Shown piece after piece: positions 36,023-57,850 of a DNA stretch of 64,000 nucleotides (position 1 is the stretch's first letter; each line of letters opens with the position of its first letter). A program made the translations under genes and the position numbers. The DNA is from Klenkia soli (GTDB lineage: Bacteria; Actinomycetota; Actinomycetes; Mycobacteriales; Geodermatophilaceae): contig NZ_FNIR01000014.1 of assembly GCF_900103975.1 (NCBI RefSeq), positions 62,001-126,000 on the forward strand, given 5' to 3'. The notes beneath the pieces were generated by a model. The model worked only from the letters and a program-made list of their open reading frames with translations, did not search any database and was not told the DNA's origin.

Positions 36023-36082
36023 GGCAAAGGAACCTCCGCACCCCCTTCTGGGGCCAGGAGGGGGTGCAGAGGTTCCTTTGCC
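36023..36082. terminator. 60-nt bidirectional hairpin
   Basis: A 29-nt arm starting GGCAAAGGAACCTC at 36023 pairs with 36054-36082, with two mismatches and a 2-nt loop. It lies between convergent ArsB-like and nadA genes. Its length exceeds a normal terminator and suggests a repeated palindromic element used as one. Confidence 0.7.
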
Positions 36083-36095
36083 TGAGAGGGGGTGG

Positions 36096-39693: not shown

Positions 39694-39702
39694 CCCCCCG
39701 CA

Positions 39703-39765
39703 GTTGATCATCGTCAGGTGGCTGGCGGCGCCGGCGTGGCGACCGACCACTTGCCGATGATCAAC
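39703..39765. repeat. 63-nt palindromic element, copy A
   Basis: The arm GTTGATCATCGTCAGGTGG (39703-39721) pairs with 39747-39765 with two mismatches. It flanks the AbiEi-like gene on the left. Copy B at 40779-40841 has the same length, arms and orientation but a different loop. Confidence 0.8.
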
Positions 39766-39822
39766 CGCGAGGTGTGCCAGGCGGGCTCGTGGAGCACAGT
39801 CGGGCGGGGTGTGCTGGCGGGC

Positions 39823-39898
39823 GTCCACACCGGGTGGTGCCGTCCACAGGTTCCCCGCCCCGGGCCGACTCGTGTCCTTCCCGGGTCACCGTGCCGGC
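39823..39898 (+). promoter_or_regulatory. Promoter with paired GTCCACA boxes
   Basis: GTCCACA occurs at 39823 and 39842, 19 nt apart, and matches 7 of 9 positions of the actinobacterial DnaA box TTGTCCACA. CACCGT (39887-39892) lies 6 nt before the ATG. The same layout occurs at 56643-56719. Confidence 0.55.
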
Positions 39899-40783
39899 AT
39901 GGACGCGCTGCCCCCCACCTTCTCGCTCGCCACCGCCCGCGCGGCCGGGCTCACCCGTGCCCAGCTGCGGGGTGGCCGGTACGTGCGGATCAGCCACGAC
40001 CTGGTGGTCCGTCTCGACGACGCGATCGACAGCCGCGAGCGGTTGCGGGTGCTGGCCACCGCCCTCCCCCACGACGCGGCCTGGAGCCACACCACGGCGG
40101 CCCACCTCCTCGGCGCGCCTGTCGACCTGCCCGCCCGGCCGCACGTCGCACTCACCCCACGCCGGGTGCTGCCCCAACGGTCCGACCTGGTCGTCCACGG
40201 CCGACGGCTGCTCCCGGACGACGTCGTCGAGGTCGACGGGCTGCGCATGACGGGCGGGGCACAGACCTTCCTGGACCTGGCCGCGGTGTTGCCCCCGGCC
40301 GAGCTCGTCGCCGTCGGTGATGCGCTGCTCCGCCGGGGCCACCTCTCGCCCGAGACCCTGCTGGCGCGTCTGTCGAGGGCCGAGCGGGTGCGCGGCGTGG
40401 TGCGCGCGCGCACCTGCGCACCGCTGCTGTCACCCGCGGCGATGTCCCGGCCCGAGAGCCTCGTCCGGTTCTGGCTGACCGACAGCCACCTGCCCGACCC
40501 GGAGGTGCAGGTCCCGGTGCTGGACCGCTGGGGCACCACGGTCGCGCATGCAGACCTCGGCTACCGGCGGTACCGGTTGCTGCTGGAGTACGAGGGCCGC
40601 CAGCACGCGGACTCCGAGCGGTTCGGCGCCGACGTCGACCGGTACTCCCTCATGGCCGCCGAGGGCAACCTCGTCCTGCGGTTCGCCGCCCGCCATCTGA
40701 ACCCGCGCACCGTCGTCGGCAGGACCGAGCGGGCCCTGCTCAGCCGCGGCTGGCGCCCCGGCACCGACCCCCGAGCCCGTTGA
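39899..40783 (+). CDS. AbiEi-like protein with nuclease-like C-terminus
   Basis: A 294-residue protein. Residues 1-110 resemble the winged-helix start of type IV AbiEi antitoxins (ATARAAGLTRAQLRGGRYVR, AWSHTTAAHLLGAPVDLP). Residues about 185-285 resemble DUF559/Vsr-type PD-(D/E)xK nucleases: VAHADLGYRRYRLLLEYEGR carries candidate Asp and Glu residues, followed by QHAD and RYSLMAAEGNLVLRFA. No AbiEii toxin is adjacent. The stop TGA lies inside the 40779-40841 palindrome. Role unknown; a self-contained defence or regulatory protein is possible. Confidence 0.8.
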   Translation: MDALPPTFSLATARAAGLTRAQLRGGRYVRISHDLVVRLDDAIDSRERLRVLATALPHDAAWSHTTAAHLLGAPVDLPARPHVALTPRRVLPQRSDLVVHGRRLLPDDVVEVDGLRMTGGAQTFLDLAAVLPPAELVAVGDALLRRGHLSPETLLARLSRAERVRGVVRARTCAPLLSPAAMSRPESLVRFWLTDSHLPDPEVQVPVLDRWGTTVAHADLGYRRYRLLLEYEGRQHADSERFGADVDRYSLMAAEGNLVLRFAARHLNPRTVVGRTERALLSRGWRPGTDPRAR

Positions 40784-40841
40784 TCATGGTCAGGTGGCTG
40801 GGCGACACGCCGCCGGCGGCAGCCACCCGCCGATGATCAAC
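40779..40841. repeat. 63-nt palindromic element, copy B
   Basis: The arm GTTGATCATGGTCAGGTGG (40779-40797) pairs with 40823-40841. Its GTTGATCA ends supply the stop codons of both convergent genes: TGA at 40781-40783 for the AbiEi-like gene and at 40837-40839 for the RNase H gene. It probably also ends both transcripts. Confidence 0.8.
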
Positions 40842-41928
40842 TCCTGAGGTGCGAGGTGTCGTTGACCAGGCGGACGCTGCTGGACCCGTCGCTGGACCAC
40901 ACCACCTCGCTCAGGCTGGCGGCCTCCAGGAAGACGCGGTGCACGATCTCGTCGCCCACCCCCAGGCCGGCGGCCAGCAGGAGCTTGATCGGGGTCACGT
41001 GGGTGACCAGCAGGACGGTCCTCCCGGCGTGCCGCTCCAGGATCCGGGCCCGTGCGGCGGCCACCCGGGTGGAGACGTCGGCGATCGACTCGCCACCGGG
41101 CGGGCGGACGTCGAGCGCGGCGCGCCAGCGGCGGAAGGCCAGCGGGTTGGCGGCCAGCGCCTCGGCGCCGGTCATGCCCTCCCAGCCACCGAAGTCCAGC
41201 TCCCGCAGGTCGCGGTCGACCTCGATGCCCAGGTCGAGCACCTCGGCGACGGCACCGGCGGTCTGCCGGCAGCGCTTGAGCGGCGAGGAGACGATCGCCT
41301 CGATGCCCCGGCCGACCATGGCCTGCGCGGCCGACGCGGCGTCGGCGCGGCCGAGGTCGGAGAGGTCGAGGTCGCTGCTGCCGCTGAACCGGCGCTCGGG
41401 GGTGTGCGCCGTCCGGCCGTGCCGCAGCAGCAGGGTGCGGGTGGTGACGACGGGGACCGGCTCGGCGGGTGGCGCGTCCTCGATCTCGACCGGGGCGGTG
41501 CCCAGGTCGCGGTGCACCGGCTTGCCGTCCATCGCGGAGTTGGCCAGCGCGTCGGCGGCGGAGTTCTGCGCGCGCGGGATCCAGGTGTAGCGGACCGTGC
41601 CCAGCTGCCGGGCGACGTCCCGGGCCTGGACGGCGAGCTTCTTCATGTCGGGGTGCTTGATCTGCCAGCGACCCGACATCTGCTCGACGACGAGCTTGGA
41701 GTCCATGCGGACCTCGACCGTCGCCTCCGGGTCGATGGACAGCGCGGCCTCGAGGCCGGCGACGAGCCCGCCGTACTCGGCGACGTTGTTCGTCGCCCGG
41801 CCGACCGAGGCGGCCCGCTCGGCCAGCAGGGCGCCGCTGTCGGCGTCCTTCACCAGCGCGCCGTATCCGGCCGGACCCGGGTTGCCCCGCGACCCGCCGT
41901 CGGCCTCCACGACCAGCCGCCGGCTCAC
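40837..41928 (-). CDS. Bifunctional RNase H / acid phosphatase
   Basis: A 363-residue fusion. Residues 1-140 form an RNase HI domain with VVEADGGSRGNPGPAGYGAL, the Glu of NNVAEYGGLVAG, Asp in RMDSKLVVEQ and NSAADALANS. Residues 165-363 form a histidine phosphatase with LLLRHGRTAHT, SSPLKRCRQTA and VTHVTPIKLLL. The M. tuberculosis homolog is Rv2228c, which combines RNase H with a CobC-like alpha-ribazole phosphatase. It overlaps the zinc-ribbon gene by 4 nt. Confidence 0.93.
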   Translation of the reverse strand: MSRRLVVEADGGSRGNPGPAGYGALVKDADSGALLAERAASVGRATNNVAEYGGLVAGLEAALSIDPEATVEVRMDSKLVVEQMSGRWQIKHPDMKKLAVQARDVARQLGTVRYTWIPRAQNSAADALANSAMDGKPVHRDLGTAPVEIEDAPPAEPVPVVTTRTLLLRHGRTAHTPERRFSGSSDLDLSDLGRADAASAAQAMVGRGIEAIVSSPLKRCRQTAGAVAEVLDLGIEVDRDLRELDFGGWEGMTGAEALAANPLAFRRWRAALDVRPPGGESIADVSTRVAAARARILERHAGRTVLLVTHVTPIKLLLAAGLGVGDEIVHRVFLEAASLSEVVWSSDGSSSVRLVNDTSHLRS

Positions 41929-42665
41929 AGCCCCGACTCGGCGGTGCGGACCAGGATCCGGTTGCAGTTCTCGCAGCGCAGCACGGTGTGCGGGTCGGCG
42001 TTGCGGGCGGCGGCCAGCTCGGTGCCGTAGAGCTCGATCCGGCAGCCCTCGCAGCGCCGGGCGTGCAGGGCGGCCGCCCCGGTGGTGCCGGTGGACTTGG
42101 CCACCCGGTCGTAGAGCGCGAGCAGCGGTGCGGTGATCGTGCCGGCGATCTCGGCCCGCTTCGCGGTGTGGGTCTGCTCGCCCTCGGCGATCTCGGCCAG
42201 GGCGGCGTCGCGGGCCTGCTCGGCGGTCGACTGGTCGGCCCGGGCGCCGGCGAGCCCCGCCTGGGCGGTCGCCAGCGTGGCGTCGGCGGCCTCGCGGCGC
42301 TCCATGAGCTCGAGCACCTGGTCCTCGAGGTCGCCCTGCCGGCGGGCCAGGGAGGCCATCTCCTGCTGCAGGCTGGTCATCTCCTTGGGCGTGGCCGCCC
42401 CCGAGTCCAGCCGCTGCTGGTCCTTGTCCGACCGGGCACGGACGGCGTCCACGTCGGTCTCGAGGCGCTTCTGCTCCCGGTCGAGGTCACGCACCTCGGT
42501 CTCGGCCCGGACGACGTCCGCGGTGAACTCCCGCTGGGCGTCCTCGGCCGCCGTGACGGCCGCGTTCTCGGGAAGGGTCCGCCGGCGGTGGGCGAGCTGC
42601 GCTAGCGCGACGTCCTCCGCGGCCAGGGCCAGCAGCTTCTGCTGGTCGAAGTGGTCTGCCTGCAC
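41925..42665 (-). CDS. Coiled-coil zinc-ribbon protein (Rv2229c-like)
   Basis: A 246-residue protein. Residues 20-170 form a long coiled coil (REQKRLETDVDAVRARSDKD and onward). The C-terminus carries CEGCRIELYG and RCENCNRIL, two CxxC pairs binding one zinc. Mycobacterial homologs are known as CdsZ or zf-RING_7 proteins. The start is GTG at 42665, 6 nt after TAGGTT. It is co-transcribed with the RNase H/phosphatase gene, an order conserved in actinobacteria. Confidence 0.9.
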   Translation of the reverse strand: MQADHFDQQKLLALAAEDVALAQLAHRRRTLPENAAVTAAEDAQREFTADVVRAETEVRDLDREQKRLETDVDAVRARSDKDQQRLDSGAATPKEMTSLQQEMASLARRQGDLEDQVLELMERREAADATLATAQAGLAGARADQSTAEQARDAALAEIAEGEQTHTAKRAEIAGTITAPLLALYDRVAKSTGTTGAAALHARRCEGCRIELYGTELAAARNADPHTVLRCENCNRILVRTAESGL

Positions 42666-42674
42666 CCGGTCAAC

Positions 42675-44306
42675 CTACCCGCGCGGCGGACCGTCCCCGG
42701 GCGCCGAGGCCAACGGGTCCGGCAGGTCCCGCACGGAGGGGTCCTCGCGCTCGGCCGTGTAGTCGGTCTCCGCCGTCCCGTCGACGCCGTCGTCGACCTT
42801 CATCGCCCGCAGGACGACCGTGACGACGACGGTCACCAGCAGGTTCACCAGCAGCGCGAGGAAGCCGGCGTAGACGGTCGTGGTGGTGTCGAACCCGAGC
42901 TTGCCCAGCGAGAACGCCGACCCGCCGAAGTGCTCGCGGACGACGACGCCGCCCGGGCCGAGGCGCGGCACCGAGTAGAGCGTCCACAGCGCCGTCAGCA
43001 TGCCGGCGGTCCAGCCGGCGACCAGCGCCCCGCGGTGCAGCCAGCGGGTGTAGAGCCCGATCCCGACCGAGGGCAGCGTCTGCAGGATGATCGCACCGCC
43101 GATGAGCTGCAGGTCGATGGAGAACTGCGGGTCGATGAAGATGATCGCCGCCACCGCGCCGACCTTGACCACCAACGAGGCCAGCTTCGCGACCTTCGCC
43201 TCCTGGGTCGGGGTCGCGTCCTTCTTCAGGTACTCCTTGTAGATGTTGCGGGTGAACAGGTTCGCCGCCGCGATGCTCATGATCGCCGCGGGCACCAGCG
43301 CCCCGATGCCGACGGCGGCGAACGCGACCCCGGCGAACCAGCTGGGGAACATCTGCTGGAACAGCGCCGGGACGATGGTGTTGCCGTCGCCGCCCACCGG
43401 CTCGGTGCCGGCCGCGATGGCCATGAAGCCCAGCAGCGCGATGAAGCCCAGCGCCAGGCTGTAGATCGGCAGCAGGCTCATGTTCTTCTGCAGCGTGCCG
43501 CGGCCCTTGGCGGCCAGCACGCCGGTGATGGAGTGCGGGTAGAGGAACAGGGCCAGCGCCGAGCCCAGCGCGAGGGTGGCGTACTGCACCTGGCCCGTGC
43601 CCGGCAGCAGGAGCCCGCCGGTACCGGCCAGGTCGAACTTCTCCTCGGCGGCGCCGAAGACGACGTCCCACCCGCCGAGCTTGGTCGGGATGACGATGAC
43701 CGCGACGATGATCGTCAGGTAGATCAGGGTGTCCTTGACGAACGCGATCAGCGCCGGCGCCCGCAGGCCCGAGCTGTAGGTGTAGACCGCGAGGATCACG
43801 AACGCCACGATGATCGGCAGCTCACCGGTGACGCCCATCGTCTTGAGCACGGCCTCGATGCCGACCAGCTGCAGCGCGATGTAGGGCATCGTGGCGACGA
43901 TCCCGGTGATGGCCACCAGCAGCGCCATCGTGGGGCTGTCGAACCGGGACCGGACGAAGTCCGCCGGCGTGACGAAGCCGCGCACGTGGCTGACCGACCA
44001 CAGCCGGATGACCACCAGGAAGATCAGCGGGTAGACCACGACGGTGTACGGCACGGCGAAGAACCCGGCCGCGCCGGCCCCGAACACCAGCGCCGGGACG
44101 GCGACGAACGTGTAGGCGGTGTAGATGTCGCCGCCGATGAGGAACCAGGTGATCCAGGTGCCGAAGCTGCGCCCGCCCAGGCCCCACTCGTCCAGGTGCA
44201 TGAGGTTCTCGGCGCGCCGCCAGCGGGCGGCCCCGAACCCCAGCGCGGTGACGACGACGAAGAACGCGATGAAGACCGCGAGCTCGACGGTGTTGATGCC
44301 CGCCAC
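42675..44306 (-). CDS. mctP: Sodium:solute symporter, MctP-like monocarboxylate permease
   Basis: A 543-residue SSS-family transporter with about 13 helices. GGRSFGTWITWFLIGGDIYT, ALVPAAIMSIAAANLFTRNI and TKLGGWDVVFGAAEEKFDL match MctP-type carriers of lactate, pyruvate or alanine. The DUF3311 gene lies 3 nt upstream, the usual small partner of MctP. The start is GTG at 44306. A charged tail ends the protein. Confidence 0.87.
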   Translation of the reverse strand: MAGINTVELAVFIAFFVVVTALGFGAARWRRAENLMHLDEWGLGGRSFGTWITWFLIGGDIYTAYTFVAVPALVFGAGAAGFFAVPYTVVVYPLIFLVVIRLWSVSHVRGFVTPADFVRSRFDSPTMALLVAITGIVATMPYIALQLVGIEAVLKTMGVTGELPIIVAFVILAVYTYSSGLRAPALIAFVKDTLIYLTIIVAVIVIPTKLGGWDVVFGAAEEKFDLAGTGGLLLPGTGQVQYATLALGSALALFLYPHSITGVLAAKGRGTLQKNMSLLPIYSLALGFIALLGFMAIAAGTEPVGGDGNTIVPALFQQMFPSWFAGVAFAAVGIGALVPAAIMSIAAANLFTRNIYKEYLKKDATPTQEAKVAKLASLVVKVGAVAAIIFIDPQFSIDLQLIGGAIILQTLPSVGIGLYTRWLHRGALVAGWTAGMLTALWTLYSVPRLGPGGVVVREHFGGSAFSLGKLGFDTTTTVYAGFLALLVNLLVTVVVTVVLRAMKVDDGVDGTAETDYTAEREDPSVRDLPDPLASAPGDGPPRG

Positions 44307-44309
44307 GCC

Positions 44310-44561
44310 TCAGCCCTGCTTCCGGCGCTGGTGGGCGCGGTACACGAGGGAGGTGGTCACGACGCCGACGACCACGAAGGCCAGCTGCACCCAGTAGAAG
44401 AACGGCCAGCCGAACAGCGCGGGCTCGGCGCGGTTGAACACCGGCACCAGCAGCGGCAGCACGATCGGCAGCAGGAGCAGCCAGTTCCAGGGGTTGCGGT
44501 CGCTGCGGCGGGGGGCCACGTCGGCCGCCCTCCGGCTGGTCGTGGGTGGCTGCTCGCTCAC
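44310..44561 (-). CDS. DUF3311 small membrane protein
   Basis: An 83-residue protein with two helices (WNWLLLLPIVLPLLVPVFNR and FYWVQLAFVVVGVVTTSLVY) and basic ends. DUF3311 proteins occur next to SSS monocarboxylate permeases and are probably accessory subunits. The start is GTG at 44561 with GGAGGGA about 8 nt upstream. Confidence 0.85.
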   Translation of the reverse strand: MSEQPPTTSRRAADVAPRRSDRNPWNWLLLLPIVLPLLVPVFNRAEPALFGWPFFYWVQLAFVVVGVVTTSLVYRAHQRRKQG

Positions 44562-44595
44562 GGGTGGTCCCTCCCGGGCCGCACCCGGGAAGGGG

Positions 44596-45867
44596 TCAGC
44601 CGTGCGTCGTGTCGGTCCGCTCGCCTGCCGCGCGGACGGTGCGGGCGGCCACCGGGTCGGCGATCTCGTCGACCCGCTGGGCCACGTGCATCGTCCACGG
44701 GTCGGTGCTCAGCCGCGAGACCGCGACACCGACCCGTGACCTGAGGTCACGGTGCAGCACGTCGGCGGCCACCGACAACCAGGGCCACTCGCTGGCGAAG
44801 TGTGCCACGTCACAGATGGCCGGGCCGGGCACCTCCCCCGCCTCGACGGCGGGGTGGTGCTTGACGTCGCTGGTCAGCAGGACGTCGGCACCGGCCGCAG
44901 CAGCGCGGTCGTACAGGGAGCTGCCGCTCCCCCCGCACACGGCCACGGTGCGCACGAGCCGATCGGGGTCACCGGCCACCCGGACGCCGGCCGCGGTGCT
45001 CGGCAGCACCGCAGCGGCCCGCTCGGCGAACTCGCGCAGGGTGATCGGGTGGGCCAGCTCGCCGAGCCGGCCGAGACCGGCGCGGCTGGGGGTCTGGGAG
45101 TTCTCGAAGACCGCGTAGCCCGGGTCCTCGTAGGGGTGCCACTCGTGCAGGGCGCGCAGCACCTCGGCCTGCGCCGCCCGGGGCACGACCATCTCCAGCC
45201 GGGTCTCGGGCACGCGCTCGAGCCGGCCGTTGGACCCGATCGAGGGGTTGGCCTCGTCGCCGGGGATGAAGGTGCCGGTGCCCACGGTCTGCCAGGCGCA
45301 CCGGGTGTAGTCACCGATGACGCCGGCGCCGGCTGCGCTGAGGGCGTCGACCAACCGGTCGCTGTCCTCGACCGGGGAGAACACGACCAGGGTGTTGGTG
45401 TGCGGGGCCCCCACGGACTCCAGCGGCACCGTGTTGCCCACCCCGAGCGCCGCGGCCAGGGCGTCGTTGACCCCGTGGTCGGCGGCGCGGTCGGCGTTGG
45501 TGTGGGCGACGAACAGGGCGATCCCGGCGCGGATCAACCGGTGCACGACCCGGCCCTTGGGGTCGTTCGCCGGCACCCCGTGCACCGGGCTCAGCAGCAG
45601 CGGGTGGTGGGTGACCACCAGGTCGACCCCGCGCGCGATGGCCTCGTCGACCACGGCGTCGGTGGGGTCGACGGCGAACAGCACGGCGTGCACCGGCTCG
45701 TCGGGGTCGCCGCAGACCAGGCCGACGGCGTCCCACTCCTCGGCCAGCGCCGGGTCGTAGCGGGCCTCGAGGGCGGCGATGACCTCCGCCAGCGGTGCGC
45801 CGGGGAGCGGGAGCGCGCGGACGTTCCCCTCGCCGGGGTAGCCGCCTTCGTCGATCGGTAGTGCCAC
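44596..45867 (-). CDS. Nif3-like dinuclear metal protein
   Basis: A 423-residue protein. DAVGLVCGDPDEPVHAVLFA, LVVTHHPLLLSPVHGVPAND, FVAHTNADRA and DVKHHPAVEAGE carry the metal-binding His, Asp and Glu of the NIF3/YbgI fold. The middle (about 190-300, ending EWHPYEDPGYAVFE) is the PII-like insert found in longer members. M. tuberculosis Rv2230c sits in the same position. The biochemical role is unsettled, with GTP cyclohydrolase-like and metal-chaperone proposals. The GTG at 45867 follows TAGAGT by 8 nt. Confidence 0.9.
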   Translation of the reverse strand: MALPIDEGGYPGEGNVRALPLPGAPLAEVIAALEARYDPALAEEWDAVGLVCGDPDEPVHAVLFAVDPTDAVVDEAIARGVDLVVTHHPLLLSPVHGVPANDPKGRVVHRLIRAGIALFVAHTNADRAADHGVNDALAAALGVGNTVPLESVGAPHTNTLVVFSPVEDSDRLVDALSAAGAGVIGDYTRCAWQTVGTGTFIPGDEANPSIGSNGRLERVPETRLEMVVPRAAQAEVLRALHEWHPYEDPGYAVFENSQTPSRAGLGRLGELAHPITLREFAERAAAVLPSTAAGVRVAGDPDRLVRTVAVCGGSGSSLYDRAAAAGADVLLTSDVKHHPAVEAGEVPGPAICDVAHFASEWPWLSVAADVLHRDLRSRVGVAVSRLSTDPWTMHVAQRVDEIADPVAARTVRAAGERTDTTHG

Positions 45868-46051
45868 GCCTTCCAACTCTAGGTGGGGTCGCTCCACCCC
45901 GCCCGCCCAGGCGGGAGCACCTCCCCCGTCGGGGACGGGGAGGCGCTCAGCGGGCTCATGGGCAACGGTGGTCATCACCGTGCATTCGCGGGCCGGACAC
46001 CTCCTGGACGGGTCGAGCGGGCTCGGGTGGGGGTGGCGGACCTCACGCCCG

Positions 46052-49000
46052 TCAGTCGACCAGCGCGTCGGCGGCGTAGGCCGACCAGAGGACGGCGTAG
46101 GGGCCCTCGACCCCGATCAGCTCGTCGTGCGGCCCCTGCTGCACCACCCGCCCGTGGTCGAGCACGACCACCCGGTCGGCCCGGGCCGCCGTGGTCAGCC
46201 GGTGGGCCACCACCACGGTGGTGCGCCGACCGGACACCGCGTCGGCGGCCCGGTTCACCGCCGCCTCCGACGCGAGGTCGAGCGAGGCGGTGGCCTCGTC
46301 GAGCAGCAGGACGTCGGGGTCGACCAGCTCGGCCCGTGCCAGGGCCAGCAGCTGCCGTTGACCGGCCGACAGCGAGCGGCCGCGCTCGCCCACCCGCGTG
46401 CGGTAGCCCTCCGGCAGCGCAGCCACCATCTCGTGCGCGCCGACGGCCCGTGCCGCGCGCTCCACCTCGAGGTCCGAGGCGTCCGGGCGGCCGTAGGCGA
46501 CCGCGTCGCGCACGGTGCCGTCGAACAGATGCGCCTCCTGCGGCACGACGCCCAGCCGGGCCCGGTAGGCACCCAGGTCCAACCCGCGCAGGTCGCGACC
46601 GTCGACGCGCACCGCACCCCCGGTCGGGTCGTAGAACCGGGCGATCAGCTTGACCACCGTCGACTTCCCGGCCCCGGTCTCGCCGACCAGGGCCACGGTC
46701 TCACCCGGGGCGATGCGCAGGTCGACGTCGCGCAGGGCCGGGGTCGGCGCACCCCGGTAGGCGAACGTGACGCCGTCGAGCACCACCTCGCCACGCAGCG
46801 GCCCCACCGGCGCAGGATCGGCCGCCGGCGGGGTGGAGGTCGGGGTCTGCAGCAGGTCGCGCAACCGGCGCAGCCCCACCGCGGCCTGCTGGTAGCTGTC
46901 GAACACCTGGGACAGCGACTGCACCGGGGAGAAGAAGGTGCCGACGTACAGCAGGAAGGCCACGAGCACCCCGGCGGTGATCGTGCCGGTGGTCAACCGC
47001 GCGGCGCCGACGACCAGGACGGCGGCGACGGCGAGCTCGGAGAGGAACTCGACGAACGGGAAGTAGGTCGCGATGTACCGCTGGGCCCGCAACCGGACGT
47101 CGCGGTAGGCCTTCGCCTTCTCGCGGAACACCTGCAGCGAGCGCTCGGTGCGCACCGCAGCCTGAGTGACCCGCACCCCGGCGACGTCCTCCTGCAACCG
47201 GGCGTTGACCGCGCTGACCCGCTCGCGCGCCTCGGTGTAGGCCGGCACCGAGCGCCGCCGGAACCACCAGGTGGCCACCGCGAGCAAGGGCAGGAAGGCC
47301 ACCAGCACCAGGGCGAGCTCGCCGTCGAGCAGGCCCAGGGCGACCAGGACCCCGACCAGGGTGAGCAGGCTGACCACCGCGGTCGTGAGGCCGGTCTGCA
47401 GGAACGCCGACAGCGCGTCGACGTCGGTGGTCATGCGGGTCATGATCCGACCGCCGAGCTCGCGCTCGTAGTAGTCCAGCCCCAACCGCTGCAGCTGGGC
47501 GAAGGTCTTCACCCGCAGCGTGTAGAGCAACCGCTCGCCGGTGCGACCCGTCAACCGGGTGGAGCCGATGGTGACCGCCCAGTCGGCGAGCACCACCAGC
47601 AGCGCCAGCCCGCTGATGGCCATGAGCGCCCCGGTCGAGCCGGCCGACACCCCGCGGTCGATGCCGCCGCGGACCAGCGCGGGCACGGCGATCTGGGCGG
47701 CGGCGTCGGCGGCGGTGAGCACCAGCGCGAGGCCCAGCACCCACCGGAAGGGCCGCAGCAGGCCGGCCAGGGTGAACCCGGGGTCGGCCGCCCGGGCCCG
47801 GGCGGCCGGCACGTCGGGCTCGTCGACGGTGGGCGGCAGCGCCGCCACCAGGGCGCGCAGGCCGGGCGTGGGGGCCGCGTTGGCCGTCGCGGACCCCGGC
47901 CCGCCGATCGAGCCGCCCACCCCGCGCAGGGGCTGGTCGTGGTCGGCGGCGGACTCGACCGGCGGCCAGGCGGCCGGGTCGGGCTGCTCCGCGCTCCAGG
48001 GGACGTCGGCGGCCCGGGCCGGGCCTCCGTCCTCGGTGGGCTCGCTGACCCCGGAGACGAGCAGGCGGAACAGCCCGCTGCGCTCGGCCAGCTCGTCGAC
48101 GGTGCCGACGTCGACCACCCGGCCGGCGTCCAGCACCGCCACCCGGTCGGCGAGGGCCAGGGTGGAGGCCCGGTGGGCCACCAGCAGCGTGGTGCGGTCG
48201 GCCCGGCCGTGCTCGCGCAGGCCCTGCTGGATGCGCGCCTCGACGGTGGCGTCGACGGCCGAGGTGGCGTCGTCGAGGACGAGCACGCGCGGGTCGCCGA
48301 GCAGTGCCCGGGCCAGCGCGACCCGTTGCCGCTGCCCACCCGAGAGCGTCAGGCCCTGCTCCCCCACCACGGTGTCGTAGCCGGCGGGCAGGTCGTCGAT
48401 GAACCCGTCGGCCTGCGCGGTGCGGGCGGCGGCCCGCACCTCCTCGTCGGTGGCGTCGGGCCGGGCGAAGGCGATGTTGGCCCGCACCGTGTCGGAGAAC
48501 AGGAAGCTGTCCTCGAACACGACCCCGAGCGCCCCGCGCAGCTGCTGGAGGTCCAGCTCGCGGACGTCGGTGCCGCCGATGCGGACGGTGCCGGCCCCTG
48601 CGTCGTAGAACCGCGGGAGCAGGCCGACGACGGCGGACTTGCCCGACCCCGCGGTGCCGACCAGCGCCAGGGTCTCCCCCGGCCGGACGGCGAGCGAGAC
48701 CCCGTGCAGCGCGGGGCTGCCGCCGGCGAAGGCGAAGGTGACGTCGTCGAGCTGGACCGACAGCGGCCCGTCGGGCACCGGGGTCGACCCGGAGGCCAGG
48801 CCGGGGTCGGTGTCCACGATCTCCAGCACCCGCTCCACCCCGGCCCGGGCCTGCTGGCCGATGACCAGCAGCGCGGCCAGCTGGCGCACCGGGGAGACCA
48901 GGGCGGCCAGGTAGGTGGCGAACGCCAGGAAGGTGCCCAGGGTGATGCTGCCCTGCAGCGCCAGCCACCCGCCCAGGGCCAGCACGCCGACCTGCCCCAG

Positions 49001-49780: not shown

Positions 49781-49832
49781 GCCGTCCAGTCTGCGCCCGG
49801 GGTCCGACAACCCGGGTGGGAAGCTGCTGGAC

Positions 49833-51773
49833 GTGGCGGACAGGGGGTTGCGGGCGCCGGCCTGGCTGGAGGAGCTGGTCCGCACCGGGCGCCCCGCCGT
49901 CCCGTGGTCCGACGTCGTCCGGTTCGCCGTCGGCATCACCGGACCACTGGTCCTCGTGGCCCTGCTGGGTCGCCTCGACGAGCCGACCGCCCTGGGCGCC
50001 GGGGTGTTCGGCACGACCGGGGCGCTGGCCGTGACGCTGGCCCCGCAGGGCGGGCCGTTGCGCACCCGGTTGCGCCGGGTCGTGGCCGCGGGCGGGTTCG
50101 GCGCCGTGGGCCTGGTGGCCGGCGAGGCGGCCTCCGGTGCGGGCTGGCAACCGGTGCTGGTGATCGGTCTGCTCTCGGCCCTGGCTGCATTGATCAGCTC
50201 GATCGACGCCGCCCTCTCGCTCGGTGCCCTGCAGCTGCTGGTGTACGCGGCGCTGTCGTCGGGCCTGCAGACCACCCTGCCGCTGCCGGCCGAGATCGGG
50301 TTCTTCCTGGCCGGGGCGCTCTGGGCGGTCCTGCCCGTGCTGGTCCAGGCGGGCACCGAGACCGCCGACCCGGACCGTTCCTCGGTCGGTGCGGTCTTCA
50401 CCGCCATCGGCGACCTGCTCGCCGCGGTCGGCACGCCGCGCACGGACGACGCACGCCGGGCGTTGACCGCCGCGCTGAACACCGGCTACGACCGGGTGAT
50501 CCACAGCCGCAGCACGTCCTCCGGGCGCAGCGCCGAGCTCGCCGAGCTGGCCGGCCTGCTGAACGCCACGGCCCCCCTGGTCGAGGGCGCCGTGGCCACC
50601 GCGCGGGCCGGGGTCACCGCCGACCCGGTCGACGTGACCGCGGCCCACGCCCTGGGTGCCGCGGTGGTCAGCCGCCGTCCGCTGGTCGGCGACCGACCCG
50701 TGGCGCTGGCCGACGGTCCCCCGACGCGCCGGGCGGTGCGGCACGGCGTCCGGCTGGTGTGGAACGTGGTCGGCGACCCGGAGGAACGGGCCTCGGCCGC
50801 CGTCGTCCGCGAGGCCCTGCCGTGGCGGCTGCGGGTGCGCGACCTGCTGGACCGGACGACGGGCAACGCCGATTCCCGGGCCTTCGTCGTCCGGCTGACC
50901 CTGTGCATGGTGATCGCCGAGGTCGCGCGGCAGCGGCTGCCGATCGAGCGGCCCTACTGGGTGCTGCTGACGGTCGCCGTGGTGCTCAAGCCCGACTTCG
51001 GGTCGGTGTTCTCCCGCGCGGTGCAGCGCGGCGCCGGGACCCTGCTGGGCGTGCTGCTGGGCTCGGCGCTGCTGGCCGTGCTGCCGAAGGGCGCGCTCGT
51101 GCTGGTGGCGATGGCGCTGTTCGCGGCGGTGATGCCCTGGGCGCGCAACGCCAACTTCGGGCTGTTCTCGGTCTTCCAGACCCCGCTGGTGATCATGCTG
51201 CTGGACCTCGCCGCGCCCTCGCCGTCGGACCTGGTGGGCCCTCGCCTGGTCGACACCCTGATCGGCTGCGCGATCGTGCTGGTCTTCGGCTACCTGCTGT
51301 GGCCCCAGACCTGGCGGGCCCCGCTGGACGACGCGCTGCGCGGGGCCGCGACCGCGCTGGACCGGTTCGTCGACGCCGCGTTCACGGGGACGCCGGAGGA
51401 GACCCGACGGGCCCGGCGCACCAGCTACCGGGCGCTGACCGAGCTGCAGACCCAGCTGCAGAGACGGCTGGCCGAGCCGCCGCCGATCAGCACCCGGGCC
51501 GCGGCCTGGTACCCGGTGATCATCCAGCTGGAGCGGACGTCGGACGCCGTCACCGAGGCGGTGATCGCGATGCGGGCCGGCGAGGAGATCCCGCCGCGCG
51601 GCCAGGTGGAGGTGCTGCGCCGCTCGATCCGCGGGCTGGACCACGACCTCCGCCTGCACCGCACCCCCGACGACACCGAGATCCACGCCGAGGGCGTGCT
51701 CGCCCCGGTGGCCCGTGAGGTCGACGCTGCGCGGCGCCTCGTCCGCCAAAGAGCCCCAGGCATCCGGGGATGA
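49833..51773 (+). CDS. FUSC family membrane protein
   Basis: A 646-residue protein with two sets of about six helices (about 25-150 and 340-500) and cytoplasmic regions between and after, as in FUSC/aromatic acid exporter proteins. PYWVLLTVAVVLKPDFGSVF is the conserved motif and RAVQRGAGTLLGVLLGSALL follows. Members include fusaric-acid and aromatic-acid exporters. It is divergent from the fused ABC exporter; the 52-bp gap must hold both promoters. The start is uncertain. Confidence 0.85.
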   Translation: MADRGLRAPAWLEELVRTGRPAVPWSDVVRFAVGITGPLVLVALLGRLDEPTALGAGVFGTTGALAVTLAPQGGPLRTRLRRVVAAGGFGAVGLVAGEAASGAGWQPVLVIGLLSALAALISSIDAALSLGALQLLVYAALSSGLQTTLPLPAEIGFFLAGALWAVLPVLVQAGTETADPDRSSVGAVFTAIGDLLAAVGTPRTDDARRALTAALNTGYDRVIHSRSTSSGRSAELAELAGLLNATAPLVEGAVATARAGVTADPVDVTAAHALGAAVVSRRPLVGDRPVALADGPPTRRAVRHGVRLVWNVVGDPEERASAAVVREALPWRLRVRDLLDRTTGNADSRAFVVRLTLCMVIAEVARQRLPIERPYWVLLTVAVVLKPDFGSVFSRAVQRGAGTLLGVLLGSALLAVLPKGALVLVAMALFAAVMPWARNANFGLFSVFQTPLVIMLLDLAAPSPSDLVGPRLVDTLIGCAIVLVFGYLLWPQTWRAPLDDALRGAATALDRFVDAAFTGTPEETRRARRTSYRALTELQTQLQRRLAEPPPISTRAAAWYPVIIQLERTSDAVTEAVIAMRAGEEIPPRGQVEVLRRSIRGLDHDLRLHRTPDDTEIHAEGVLAPVAREVDAARRLVRQRAPGIRG

Positions 51774-51805
51774 CTTCGTAGTAGTCGGTCGTGCAGGCTC
51801 AGGTC

Positions 51806-52489
51806 ATGGACTTGTACGAGATGACCGTCCTTCTAGGGACACTCGATGCCCAGTGCTCAGCATTCGAGACCAACCACCAGCATCGGGACGACGCTTACCG
51901 GCGACTGGTGGATGCCATGGACACAGCTCATTCCAAGACTGCGCCAATATCGGATGAAGGCGACCGCGCGATCAGGCTCGATGAGCTGCGCACCGAATTG
52001 AACGTATCGGCGATTCAGACCGAGGTGTGGGCGTCGAACATCTCAATGTTAAATGCGGCCGCAAACGCCTACAAACTATCGTGGAACAAATCGAAGTATT
52101 CGACCGAGAGAGCCGAGCTGCGATCACTCCTCGAAGAACCGGACGAAGAACCCACAGGTGTTCGAGACGTCCGAAATAGCTTTGAGCACCAAGACGAGCG
52201 AATCTTCAAGCACTTCAAGGACGAAGCAGCTCGGCTGAGAAACGACTCGGACCATGGCCGTATCCATTTGTCCTACCTCATCGTCGATGACCCAGGAGTA
52301 GATCAGGTGGATGCGCTGCCCGACCGAAACCGCATCTACGGGCTGTGGAATGCGTCGTCCGACGTGATGTCATTCTGGGACGACGATGTAGACCTGCGGG
52401 CCGTGGCATCTCATCTAAGGTGCATGAAAGCCAAAATCCCAGCTGCACGTTCGGCAGCCGCGCATGCTTCTGGGGCGCAGATTCTATAG
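51806..52489 (+). CDS. Orphan HEPN-like protein, probably acquired
   Basis: A 227-residue soluble protein without a recognised family. Its base composition is visibly AT-richer than its surroundings and it uses a TTA leucine codon, rare in such genomes. Mostly helical. Near residue 125 it has VRDVRNSFEHQDERIF: RNSFEH fits the Rx4-6H catalytic motif of HEPN ribonucleases, with Asn following Arg. It lies directly beyond the 3' end of tRNA-Val, a common integration spot. No nucleotidyltransferase antitoxin is adjacent. Nuclease activity is inference. The ATG at 51806 is preferred to a GTG at 51791. Confidence 0.7.
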   Translation: MDLYEMTVLLGTLDAQCSAFETNHQHRDDAYRRLVDAMDTAHSKTAPISDEGDRAIRLDELRTELNVSAIQTEVWASNISMLNAAANAYKLSWNKSKYSTERAELRSLLEEPDEEPTGVRDVRNSFEHQDERIFKHFKDEAARLRNDSDHGRIHLSYLIVDDPGVDQVDALPDRNRIYGLWNASSDVMSFWDDDVDLRAVASHLRCMKAKIPAARSAAAHASGAQIL

Positions 52490-52509
52490 CCGTACGGTGC
52501 GGGATCCGG

Positions 52510-52581
52510 TGGGCGCGGCAGGGTTCGAACCTGCGACCGCTCGCTTGTAAGGCGAGAGCTCTACCGCTGAGCTACGCGCCC
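52510..52581 (-). tRNA. tRNA-Val (UAC anticodon)
   Basis: A 72-nt cloverleaf on the minus strand. The acceptor stem is GGGCGCG with CGCGCCC plus discriminator A. The D arm has TAGCTCAGCGGTAGAGC. The anticodon stem CTCGC/GCGAG encloses CTTACAA with anticodon TAC. The T arm contains GGTTCGAACC. CCA is not fully encoded (CC then G). Confidence 0.95.
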
Positions 52582-52587
52582 GGGAGC

Positions 52588-52607
52588 CGCCCCACCGTAG
52601 TGGGGCG
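52588..52607. terminator. Stem-loop after peroxiredoxin gene
   Basis: CGCCCCAC (52588-52595) pairs perfectly with GTGGGGCG (52600-52607) around CGTA. It lies between the peroxiredoxin stop and the tRNA-Val 5' end on the minus strand, and probably insulates the tRNA. Confidence 0.6.
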
Positions 52608-52615
52608 AGCCGGGT

Positions 52616-53077
52616 TCAGGCCGCCAGTGCGGCGACGGCGTCCTTCCAGCCGGTCTGCGCGCGGGCGTCGCCGGGGCCGTTGACCTCGGCGAAGGCGACC
52701 TTGCCCTCGGCGTCGACCAGGAAGGTGCCGCGGTTGGCCATGCCGGCGGTCTCGAAGAACGCGCCGTAGGCCTTCGCCACCTCGCCGTGCGGCCAGAAGT
52801 CGCTGAGCAGGGGGAAGTCGAAGCCCTGCTCGGCCTTCCACGCCTTGAGCGCGGGCGCCGGGTCGCAGGAGACCGCCACGACCTGCACACCGGCGTCGGT
52901 GTAGGTGGCCAGCTCGTCGCGCAGCTGGCACAGCTCACCGGTGCAGATGCCGGAGTAGGCGAACGGGTAGAAGACCACCAGCACCGGCGAGCCGCGGTGC
53001 TCGGACAGCGCCCAGGGCTGCCGGTCGGAGTCGTTCAGCGTGAAGTCGGGCGCGGTGTCACCCACGGAGAGAGTCAT
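52616..53077 (-). CDS. ahpE: Peroxiredoxin, AhpE/BCP-like
   Basis: A 153-residue thiol peroxidase. VLVVFYPFAYSGICTGELCQ contains the peroxidatic Cys45 and a second Cys50. Cys45 is where M. tuberculosis AhpE (Rv2238c), the syntenic homolog, has its single active cysteine. The Cx4C spacing is that of BCP/PrxQ enzymes, so this protein may resolve by an internal disulfide. VAVSCDPAPALKAW and NRGTFLVDAEGKV follow. CACGAT is 6 nt before the ATG. It reduces hydroperoxides or peroxynitrite. Confidence 0.92.
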   Translation of the reverse strand: MTLSVGDTAPDFTLNDSDRQPWALSEHRGSPVLVVFYPFAYSGICTGELCQLRDELATYTDAGVQVVAVSCDPAPALKAWKAEQGFDFPLLSDFWPHGEVAKAYGAFFETAGMANRGTFLVDAEGKVAFAEVNGPGDARAQTGWKDAVAALAA

Positions 53078-53092
53078 GGATGAATCGTGCCG

Positions 53093-53518
53093 TCACCGCT
53101 TGGAGCGGGCCGCCTTGGGGGTGACCAGCCGGATGCCGGCCCACTCCTTGGCCGCGGAGATGCTGCTGGTCTGCTGCAGGCCGGCGGTCGGCGCGGCCTC
53201 GGTGACCTCGCCGGGCTCGACGTGGCCGGGGCGACCGGACTTCGGCGTGAGCAGCCAGACGACGCCGTCGTCGGCCAGGGCGGCGAGGGAGTCGACGAGG
53301 GCGTCGATCAGGTCGCCGTCCTCCTCGCGCCACCACAGCAGGACGACGTCGGCGACCTCGTCGGAGTCCTCGTCCACCATCTCGCCGCCGGAGAGCTCGA
53401 CGACGGAGTCGCGGAGGTCCTCGTCGGCGTCCTCGTCCCAGCCGAGCTCCTGCACGACCATGCCCGGCTTGATCCCCAGCCGGGCCGCCATGCTGGCGCT
53501 GCCCGAGTCGACGCTCAT
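53093..53518 (-). CDS. DUF3052 family protein
   Basis: A 141-residue acidic protein with RLGIKPGMVVQELGWDEDAD, VADVVLLWWREEDGDLIDAL and VVWLLTPKSGRPGHVEPGEV, matching actinobacterial DUF3052 (Rv2239c position, between ahpE and aceE). No catalytic motif is visible. GGAGG occurs about 10 nt before the ATG. The 212-bp gap to aceE is divergent and should contain both promoters; I see no clear hexamers. Confidence 0.88.
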   Translation of the reverse strand: MSVDSGSASMAARLGIKPGMVVQELGWDEDADEDLRDSVVELSGGEMVDEDSDEVADVVLLWWREEDGDLIDALVDSLAALADDGVVWLLTPKSGRPGHVEPGEVTEAAPTAGLQQTSSISAAKEWAGIRLVTPKAARSKR

Positions 53519-53730
53519 CCCCGCTCGTCCTCCATGTCCTAGGTGATCCCGTTGTCGGTGTCCGCTGTGCCGCGGCGCACCCGGGTCGGTGCGTCAGTGT
53601 GTCCGACGCGCGGCCCGAGCGGTAGCCGACCGGTCCGATCCGTGCCCGGAACGTGTCCCGACCGGCCTCGTCGGGGTCCGGAACGCGAGGCGGCGTGACG
53701 TCGGCGGGGGCGGCAGGAGACGATGTGCGC

Positions 53731-56535
<2,805 letters not shown>

Positions 56536-56574
56536 CCCTGCGCCCGGCCCCTCGCAGCGTTGATCAGGGGGGTG

Positions 56575-56623
56575 CACGACAGTCCGTCCCCCTCCACCAG
56601 ATCTGGTGGAGGGGGACGGACTT
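56575..56623. repeat. Palindromic repeat, copy C
   Basis: A 49-nt element. Positions 56581-56622 are a perfect 42-nt palindrome, with half-site beginning AGTCCGTCCCCCTCCACCAG and centred on AGATCT. It shares 42 of 49 positions with copy D (57763-57811) in the same orientation. It may also terminate aceE. Confidence 0.85.
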
Positions 56624-56642
56624 CCGTGCAGGAGGACCCGCC

Positions 56643-56719
56643 GTCCACAGCGTCGGTCGTCGTCCACAGATCCGCCGAAGGCCTCCCGGCCGACCGCGCT
56701 CGGGCCACACCATGCCCTC
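56643..56719 (+). promoter_or_regulatory. Promoter with paired GTCCACA boxes
   Basis: GTCCACA occurs at 56643 and 56662, again exactly 19 nt apart as at 39823/39842. CACCAT (56708-56713) lies 6 nt before the GTG at 56720. Box-to-start distances are 57 and 58 nt in the two modules. Confidence 0.55.
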
Positions 56720-57748
56720 GTGCACCCCGTCATCCGCGCCGCCATGGATGGCCACGGCCAGGTCTTCACCGCCGCCGATGCCCGCCGGGCGGGGGTGGGC
56801 CGCAACGACGTGGCGCCGCTGCTCCGATCCGGCGAGTGGTGGCGCATCCGTCACGGCGTGTACACCACCGGGGCCACGTGGCGCGAGCACGAGGCCAGCG
56901 GTCGGACACATCTGCTGGCGTCCGCCGCCGTGCTGGTCCGCCTGGACGGCCAGGCCGTGCTCAGCCACGCGTCGGCCGCCCGGCTGCACCAGCTCGTCCT
57001 GCCGGCCCGTGTCCCCGACGACGTCCAGCTGACCGATGCCGACAGGTTCCGGGCGGGGCGCGGCTACACGGTCCACGAGGCCGGCCTCACCGACGCCGAC
57101 GTCACCGTGGTGGACGGGCTGCCGGTCACGTCCCTCGCCCGGACGCTGGTCGACGTCGCGCGGGAGTGGGACGTCGTGGATGCCGTGGTGGCCATGGACG
57201 ACGCGCTCGCCGACGGGCGGGTGACGCCAGAGGTGCTGACCGAGACGATCCTGCGCCACACGCACTGGCCGGGCATCGGGCGGGCGTCGTCGGCAGTGCA
57301 GCTGGCTCGGGTGGGCGCGCACTCGCCGCACGAGACCAGGAGCCGGCTCGCCCTGGTCGGCGCCGGCCTGCCCGAACCGCTGCTGCAGGCAGCGGTGTAC
57401 GTGGGGACCAGGCTCGTCGCCGTCCTCGACTGGGTGTGGGACGACGAGGGCGTGTTCGGCGAGGCCGACGGGAAGGCGAAGGTGCTGGATCCCTGGCGCG
57501 GTCGAACCCCAGGGGAAGCGGTGTGGCGCGAGAAGCGGCGGCACGACGAGCTGGTGGACCTCGACCTGCGCGGTGTCCGGTTCGCCCCGGCCGACCTCTT
57601 CGAGGCACTGCCCGGCAAGGTCGACCGGGTGCGCCGGCTGCTGGCCAGCCCGCCGCCGTCCGGCCCGCGGCGTTACCGGATCGAGCAGCGCAACGGGGGC
57701 CTCCGGATCACCCCGCGGGTCGCTCCGCCGTCCTCATCGGCGGCGTGA
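56720..57748 (+). CDS. AbiEi-like type IV antitoxin family protein
   Basis: A 342-residue protein. The N-terminal winged helix reads VFTAADARRAGVGRNDVAPL then LRSGEWWRIRHGVYTTG, a classic AbiEi_4-type start. LSHASAARLHQLVLP and VTSLARTLVDVAREW follow. The C-terminal half has AVLDWVWDDEGVFGEADGK, where Asp, Glu and Lys fit a PD-(D/E)xK-like core. No toxin gene is adjacent, and it shares promoter layout with the 39899 gene. The GTG at 56720 is supported by CACCAT 6 nt upstream; an ATG at 56744 is the alternative. Confidence 0.8.
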   Translation: MHPVIRAAMDGHGQVFTAADARRAGVGRNDVAPLLRSGEWWRIRHGVYTTGATWREHEASGRTHLLASAAVLVRLDGQAVLSHASAARLHQLVLPARVPDDVQLTDADRFRAGRGYTVHEAGLTDADVTVVDGLPVTSLARTLVDVAREWDVVDAVVAMDDALADGRVTPEVLTETILRHTHWPGIGRASSAVQLARVGAHSPHETRSRLALVGAGLPEPLLQAAVYVGTRLVAVLDWVWDDEGVFGEADGKAKVLDPWRGRTPGEAVWREKRRHDELVDLDLRGVRFAPADLFEALPGKVDRVRRLLASPPPSGPRRYRIEQRNGGLRITPRVAPPSSSAA

Positions 57749-57762
57749 CCCGCGTCTTGCTC

Positions 57763-57811
57763 CACGAAAGTCCATCCCCCTTCACCAGATCTCGCCGAGG
57801 GGGAAGGACTT
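57763..57811. repeat. Palindromic repeat, copy D
   Basis: A 49-nt element starting CACGAAAGTCC and ending GGACTT, an imperfect palindrome around AGATCT. Seven differences from copy C. It lies just downstream of the AbiEi-like gene, 9 nt before the right terminal repeat. Confidence 0.8.
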
Positions 57812-57850
57812 CGATCAGGGCCCCTGATCATCGCTGCACCAGCCGGCTCG

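Follow-up and report, generated by a model that had tools for sequence, protein, structure and literature searches.

In a 64,000-nucleotide (nt) stretch of the Klenkia soli genome (assembly GCF_900103975.1, contig NZ_FNIR01000014.1, positions 62,001 to 126,000; hereafter the window), two genes for proteins resembling AbiEi, the antitoxin of AbiE systems, are each preceded by a promoter with two short direct repeats, termed box 1 and box 2. The gene at 39899..40783 (+ strand) encodes 294 amino acids (aa) with an N-terminal AbiEi-type and a C-terminal DUF559/Vsr-like region; its sole Pfam match was DUF559 (E 0.0033, below the gathering score). The gene at 56720..57748 (+) encodes an AbiEi_4/DUF559-like protein of 342 aa, with an AbiEi_4 match of 6.1e-08, above the gathering score. 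Upstream of the first gene, box 1 (GTCCACA, 39823..39829, +) begins 76 nt before the start codon, and box 2 (GTCCACAG, 39842..39849, +) begins 19 nt from box 1 and 57 nt before the start codon. A −10-like hexamer, CACCGT (39887..39892, +), lies 6 nt before the ATG at 39899 and fits the form nAnnnT. Upstream of the second gene, box 1 (GTCCACA, 56643..56649, +) and box 2 (GTCCACAG, 56662..56669, +, then ATC) were again found with their starts 19 nt apart, box 2 being 58 nt from the start codon, and the hexamer CACCAT (56708..56713, +) stands 6 nt before the GTG at 56720. The box pairs, the CACCNT elements and the two distances from box 2 to the start codon were thus recovered as a first-pass annotation of the window had described them.

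The same annotation had located the other copies of GTCCACA in the window only inside an L,D-transpeptidase gene. This did not hold, because single copies were found at 2394, 21113 (− strand), 31787 and 42982. The heptamer alone was not enriched (8 copies in the window against 9.9 expected from shuffled sequences), and it is the geometry of the box pair, rather than the single heptamer, that is the non-chance feature. In the whole genome (4.76 Mb), GTCCACA-N12-GTCCACA occurred 19 times, and the reversed-pattern control did not occur. When the gap was left free from N2 to N30, 21 GTCCACA pairs were obtained, 19 of them with exactly N12, against 3 for the control. A 36-nt sequence profile was then built from the 19 exact sites, and a genome search in which 150 of 12,910 first-look candidates were scored gave 26 sites with E < 0.005, namely 18 of the 19 exact sites and eight new ones. 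The remaining exact site (L011) was reported by the profile only in pieces, and the weak matches L106–L108 were judged to be chance. The 19 exact loci (L001–L019) were oriented by their pair, and their genes, predicted with a codon model that the window had served to train, were then scanned against Pfam.

Of the 27 sites of the K. soli genome, ten stand before AbiEi-like genes and one adjoins such a gene in inverted orientation; the remaining 16 lie ahead of different genes, mainly those of competence and the Tad pilus. At the exact-pair loci, Pfam matches were found to ComEC, SSB, DUF4192, an FHA-FtsK protein, a DEAD helicase, an amine oxidase and AbiEi/DUF559-like proteins, and a second SSB-like protein scored just under the gathering score. 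One pair heads a yraN-comM-dprA operon (UPF0102/YraN, then ComM with its Mg_chelatase match, then DprA). The pilus-type genes under the pair encode an SAF/RcpC (CpaB) protein, TadE and Tad proteins, and a TadZ-like protein (itself lacking a Pfam match) followed by a TadA-type ATPase and a T2SSF protein. The eight profile-added sites include comEA (SLBB, HHH), a second DUF4192 gene, an M23 peptidase gene, a DUF2786 gene, three AbiEi-like genes and a gene for a ComF-like protein with a weak phosphoribosyltransferase match. Judged by predicted functions, the gene content of the 27 sites looks like that of a natural-competence regulon. The first-pass annotation had proposed that one regulator controls an orphan antitoxin-like family. 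A single regulator is indeed likely, since both window promoters share the same architecture, but with 16 sites before other genes the view that its target is such a family is not supported.

The geometry seen in the window was common to most of these sites. At 23 of the 27, box 1 begins 74–77 nt before the start codon, and when 24 sites were aligned on the start codon, A was found at −11 in 18 and T at −7 in 19, giving an nAnnnT −10 element; a conserved −35 element was not found among these 24 sites. The distance searches for these 27 sites, and for the 21 ComEC-anchored pairs described below, covered a wider range. The start-codon geometry, the nAnnnT element and the lack of a −35 element suggest leaderless, activator-dependent promoters. 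On comparative evidence throughout, from the promoter architecture and the regulon content together, we consider it very probable that the paired boxes are the binding site of a predicted transcriptional activator of natural competence.

The AbiEi-like genes were collected with a profile made from nine of them, from which L103 was omitted for its broken frame and L011 left unused because its AbiEi-like parts are split between two frames. The profile found 19 AbiEi-like loci in the K. soli genome, the fragments L310 and L312 not being counted. The pair was present with 0–1 mismatches at ten of the 19 loci, inverted at one and absent at eight. Two of the pair-bearing genes, L103 (G000 C9:91075) and L011 (G000 C11:107900), have broken reading frames. 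At the inverted locus (L003, G000 C6:200687-200712) the exact pair is opposed to the adjoining AbiEi-like gene, whose start resembles those of the pair-less genes.

All nine proteins scanned matched the PADLOC AbiEi model, whereas Pfam AbiEi_4 matched four of the nine and DUF559 four. Their alignment showed conserved acidic residues (S-x2-E, D, E-x-(D/E)-G), and the C-terminal profile region matched the PDB entries 3hrl ('Endonuclease-Like Protein', E 1.5e-05) and 3r3p ('Mobile intron protein', E 3.2e-04), which we take to belong to the Vsr/EDxHD group. From these weak profile matches and the conserved acidic residues, the proteins are predicted to be winged helix-turn-helix (wHTH) nucleases. 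The N-terminal AbiEi-type region is shared with the antitoxin of AbiE type IV toxin-antitoxin systems, but the genes studied here differ from these in their C-terminal DUF559/Vsr-like part, in their competence-type promoter and, mostly, in their bracketing repeats, which are described below. Likewise, the C-terminal profile match and the acidic residues recall the Vsr/homing-endonuclease-like fold, whereas here an AbiEi-type N-terminus is fused, the gene is bracketed by repeats, no intron or intein context was seen, and the nuclease activity is a prediction.

The element is widespread in the host family: GTCCACA-N12-GTCCACA was present in 52 of 57 genomes (a sample that includes the K. soli genome), with 418 matches against 1 for the control. 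To compare orthologous positions across the class, ComEC, which was present in 106 of 108 class genomes, was used as an anchor, and 60 of the 106 upstream regions were taken, spread over families (that of L142 was shortened by a contig end). A TCCACA pair was found on the com strand in 21 of the 60 and on the other strand in none (p 1e-7). Its spacing ranged from 14 to 34 nt, with 29 nt the commonest, and before comEA across the class the boxes were 17–33 nt apart. When the distance was taken to the start codon of the best frame, box 2 lay at 57–60 nt for 16 of the 21 pairs and at 47, 63, 70, 105 and 129 nt for the rest. In 19 of the 39 regions that had no pair, a single box-2-like site was followed by a −10 element and a start codon at about the right distance, against 0 of 39 on the other strand, this test having used a permissive pattern that was drawn up once the first result was known.

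A second form of the element, with a spacing of 29 nt, was found in 57 of 296 class genomes (157 matches against 5 for the control). Among 30 such loci that were fetched, 15 had a convincing frame at 54–61 nt, including genes for RecA, ComF-like, SSB-like, DUF4192, AidB, ComEA and AbiEi-like proteins. The spacing-29 pair stands before recA in two class families (L276, L278, L286, L269), and the recA frame of L269 continues into stretches matching Hint and LAGLIDADG, a sign that this recA may carry an intein. For two genomes of one family, 20 regions covering 21 of the 22 listed matches were read, and comEA, ssb, SSB-like, yraN, comF-like, M23, DUF4192, flp-like, tadZ-like and AbiEi-like genes were found. 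Box 2 was 58–60 nt from the start in 16 of these 20 regions, as read by a script that favoured 56–61 nt. More generally, starts about 58 nt after box 2 were favoured or solely sought in the 30-locus set, in the two-genome and Micrococcus luteus set and in the set used for the bracketing repeats, and the distance counts from these sets are therefore not blind. The spacing of 29 nt, and that of 28 nt in Micrococcus, were each searched at that single value.

In Micrococcus, TCCACA pairs at the ComEC-anchored spacings were absent from all nine comEC upstream regions. Reading these nine regions together with two further sites, we derived by eye the pattern CTGCACA-N22-TCCMC (spacing 28), which gave 108 matches in nine of nine Micrococcus genomes, with at least seven in every genome, against 2 for the control. 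It was found upstream of comEA in eight of the nine; because the pattern was taken from some of the regions later counted, these comEA matches are not independent, and most of the other sites are. In the 42 sites that were read, the free flanks were CTC before and G after CTGCACA, the heptamer being set by the search pattern, and the start codon followed box 2 by 54–61 nt in 33. The genome taken for M. luteus NCTC 2665 had 16 sites, preceding flp, a gene for a tadA-type ATPase, comEA, ssb, DUF4192, M23 and WXG100 genes, dnaG, tag (methyladenine glycosylase), five AbiEi-like genes and two unknown genes. The five AbiEi-like genes were assigned by similarity to those of K. soli, and the one scanned against Pfam gave no match. 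The flp frame has 77 aa, the length given for Mlut_18170 in the available part of PMC4322843. The start codon was 84–87 nt from box 1 in 11 of the 16, i.e. box 2 was 56–59 nt from the start; in two of these 11 another frame scored higher, and one of the two was settled by an SSB match.

Genes for ComEA, SSB, M23, DUF4192 and AbiEi-like proteins were thus common to all three lineages. The core genes of DNA uptake and processing that share the element are comEA, comEC, comF-like, yraN-comM-dprA, ssb and Tad genes in K. soli, and comEA, flp, tadA and ssb in M. luteus. It was also observed that genes resembling those of type VII secretion lie under the boxes, namely WXG100 in M. luteus (L247) and FHA-FtsK/SpoIIIE in K. 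soli (L010, L114), which may point to a connection of an ESX-like system with transformation.

Under the activator reading, the direct repeats (RTCCACAG type) upstream of comEA and of many DNA-uptake, recombination and Tad-pilus genes would be the site of the activator, which would bind both boxes and recruit RNA polymerase to an otherwise weak promoter. Box 2 lies near 58 nt from the start codon and box 1 further upstream at a spacing that depends on the lineage (19, 28 or 29). The nAnnnT −10 element is some 6 nt from the start codon, and the transcripts would mostly be leaderless. The AbiEi/DUF559-like genes, with their predicted wHTH-nuclease products, would be regular members of the regulon.

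Such an arrangement has parallels in the ComK regulon of Bacillus subtilis and the ComX regulon of Streptococcus pneumoniae, in which, as here, uptake, pilus, ssb, dprA and recA-type genes share a promoter element. ComK boxes are likewise paired sites at variable spacings. The present regulon differs from both in its boxes, its Tad/Flp pilus, its leaderless-looking promoters and its many AbiEi-like members. According to the available part of PMC12849477 (2026), M. luteus is without ComK, ComX and competence-stimulating peptide signalling, and its competence regulon is currently unknown, with upstream regulators unidentified. As far as the available parts of PMC4322843, PMC6667448, PMC8467076 and PMC12849477 go, transformation in M. 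luteus requires, or is influenced by, comEA/EC, two tad loci, the Flp pilin and cpaB, and loss of comEC, tad-cluster genes or cpaB (Mlut_14650) abolishes or strongly lowers it (PMC4322843, PMC8467076). In our analysis flp, the tadA-type gene and comEA of this species carry the box pair. Term searches of the available text of the same four papers did not return a shared promoter element for com genes, and neither the box-pair promoter nor the bracketed cassette structure described below was found in the literature searched, outside which lay most subscription papers and all bioRxiv preprints.

Several observations weigh against this interpretation. The geometry failed at four of the 27 K. soli sites (leaders are longer in L001 and L007, the pair of L003 is inverted, and in L016 the distance is 68 nt), and the boxes of L104 are 18 nt apart. 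The amine oxidase, DUF2786 and DEAD helicase genes have no evident role in competence. Across the class, RTCCACA-N12-RTCCACAG gave 76 matches in 35 of 296 genomes, 19 of which were those of K. soli, whereas the control gave 11; the 19-nt form is therefore mostly confined to the host family and a few others, and in other families the loci with this spacing mostly had no convincing frame at the right distance. The exact pair was missing from 39 of the 60 comEC upstream regions, and 20 of these 39 also lacked the single-box form, so that many lineages would use a diverged code or none. Only half of the 30 spacing-29 loci had a convincing frame at the right distance, implying that this set holds chance matches and perhaps also clusters of the replication-origin (oriC) type. 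Before comEA, the spacing varied within families (28, 29 and 33 in f25; 26 and 29 in f27; 29 and 31 in f31; 29 and 33 in f20), and the spacings cannot all be placed on the same face of the helix. Finally, no pair was found in the upstream region of M. luteus cpaB, where published mutations raising comEA expression map. The idea that these mutations alter a box was rejected, because the two intergenic changes, placed with an inferred offset of 91 nt, lie outside any pair.

It may be asked whether the boxes are read by DnaA itself, with replication status setting competence, which would extend to the whole regulon a possibility raised in the first-pass annotation. The core GTCCACA is common to actinobacterial DnaA boxes, whose consensus is TTGTCCACA, and similar 9-mers occur in the dnaA regions of K. 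soli and of a Micrococcus, among them variants that also appear in the Micrococcus competence boxes (TGCACA, TCCCCA). Exactly TTGTCCACA was found in three of the 54 boxes of 27 K. soli sites, but the TT that opens the DnaA box occupied positions 1–2 in only four of the 54. Box 1 of Micrococcus, in which the search pattern fixed CTGCACA and left the flanks free, is mostly CTCCTGCACAG and departs from the DnaA box at three positions, whereas TTGTCCACAG boxes persist in the region presumed to be oriC in one Micrococcus. A point on the other side is that the dnaA-dnaN gap of K. soli has no exact TTGTCCACA and only degenerate boxes, so that the DnaA box of the host is not firmly known and the comparison is weakened. 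On balance, DnaA is an unlikely reader of the boxes. A small paralogue of the DnaA C-terminal domain was also rejected as the regulator, since one Bac_DnaA_C protein was found in each of 25 of 26 family genomes and none in the 26th, which is incomplete. A candidate regulator is the HTH_17 protein Mlut_14660, mutation of which affects comEA expression in M. luteus, according to the available part of PMC8467076; nothing in this analysis ties it to the boxes. In another genome (G098), a gene that by eye resembles those of XRE-type helix-turn-helix proteins starts 58 nt after box 2 (L324), and it is possibly a regulator or feedback gene there.

The regulator might instead be sought among the AbiEi-like proteins, the site being specific to their genes and autoregulated through the N-terminal wHTH as in AbiE systems. 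AbiEi proteins are DNA-binding autorepressors, and ten K. soli AbiEi-like genes carry the pair, but eight of the 19 AbiEi-like loci have no pair, and in its narrow form this explanation is refuted by the 16 sites that precede other genes. In a broader form, one or more paralogues could regulate the whole regulon; taken together, autoregulation of this kind seems improbable. A response to DNA damage or general stress, rather than competence, could account for the RecA, AidB, Tag and DnaG genes among the sites of some lineages. In pneumococcus, however, RecA, SSB and DprA also count among the late-competence genes, and comEA, comEC, comF-like, yraN-comM-dprA, Flp/Tad-pilus and cpaB genes serve DNA uptake, a subset of them recurring in the three lineages, which leaves a stress regulon improbable.

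In addition to the promoter, both window genes are enclosed by repeats. Gene 39899 lies between an upstream hairpin at 39696..39772 (DNA fold z −4.35) and a downstream hairpin at 40779..40849 (z −2.32 for the DNA fold of 40772-40849), which match each other over 71 nt at 79% in the inverted register and over 23 nt at 96% in the direct register. The upstream repeat of gene 56720 (56573..56630) is a near-perfect palindrome (DNA fold −32 kcal/mol, z −9.65), and its downstream counterpart, a weaker hairpin at 57763..57812 (z −2.54 for the fold of 57757-57816), is 86% identical to it over 50 nt. Among the pair-bearing AbiEi-like genes of K. soli that were tested (L011 was left out), eight of nine had matching flanks (modest in L099, absent in L103), against none of ten other regulon genes, these being ten of the 16. 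For all lineages together, the test was limited to the 112 genes whose start follows box 2 by 54–62 nt and whose stop falls within the locus, one of them being set aside for short flanks. Matching flanks were found in 25 of 34 box-bearing AbiEi-like genes, against none of 62 other box-bearing genes (p 7e-16) and none of 15 weak open reading frames; six of the 34 had also built the classing profile and many came from Micrococcus species, so that not all are independent. In M. luteus the counts were four of five against none of six. Matching flanks were also found in three of eight AbiEi-like genes tested that have no forward pair, which indicates that the brackets go with the gene family and not only with the promoter.

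The palindrome score of the 25 matched flanks was at least 12 in 16 and lower in nine, and 15 matched better in the inverted and ten in the direct register. The repeats were mostly private to their gene: they were common to orthologues that are 96% and 87% identical, and not to pairs of at most 67% identity among the 25, although L017 and L099 share part of theirs. For eight cassette repeats, no copies beyond their own flanks were found in about 290 kb of partly overlapping genome pieces, apart from this sharing. An unlinked pair-less AbiEi-like gene (L304, contig C20) is flanked by a hairpin of which two inverted copies occur at 36024-36083 of the window; with this one exception, the hairpins were not seen as dispersed repetitive extragenic palindromes (REPs) in those pieces, and that explanation was rejected. 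REP-associated tyrosine transposases (RAYTs) are HUH transposases with many dispersed REPs. The genes described here resemble them in being flanked by palindromes peculiar to the gene, and differ from them in that the eight cassette hairpins have no dispersed copies in the 290 kb, L017 and L099 sharing theirs.

Whether the repeats are bidirectional terminators only, their similarity within a gene coming from local duplication, has to be considered, because several of them fold strongly and directly follow the stop codon. None of the 62 other box-bearing genes has matching flanks, however; the match changes between most paralogues and is shared by the 96% and 87% identical orthologues, and nine of the 25 matched flanks are poor palindromes, which fit terminators poorly. 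Terminators of this kind are a real possibility, albeit one that we would not favour. The AbiEi-like cassettes would perhaps encode a nuclease that processes or restricts DNA in the competent state, or constitute a selfish element timed to transformation. A more specific proposal, made tentatively and with some doubt, would see in the AbiEi-DUF559 genes selfish or mobile cassettes that take advantage of transformation, each with a homing-endonuclease-like product recognising the bracketing repeats of its own gene and expressed from the competence promoter of the host. The nuclease would then be present exactly when incoming single-stranded DNA, which is able to fold into these hairpins, enters the cell.

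If the boxes are read by a competence activator, the pair would provide a promoter code that can be put to the test and a set of candidate regulon members in M. luteus, an actinobacterial model, and in other actinobacterial families, as well as a bait DNA for isolating the regulator. DNA uptake would also supply a physiological context for orphan families such as AbiEi/DUF559 and DUF4192. Should the cassette proposal be true as well, the gain, loss and diversification of these cassettes would ride on natural transformation across the Actinobacteria.

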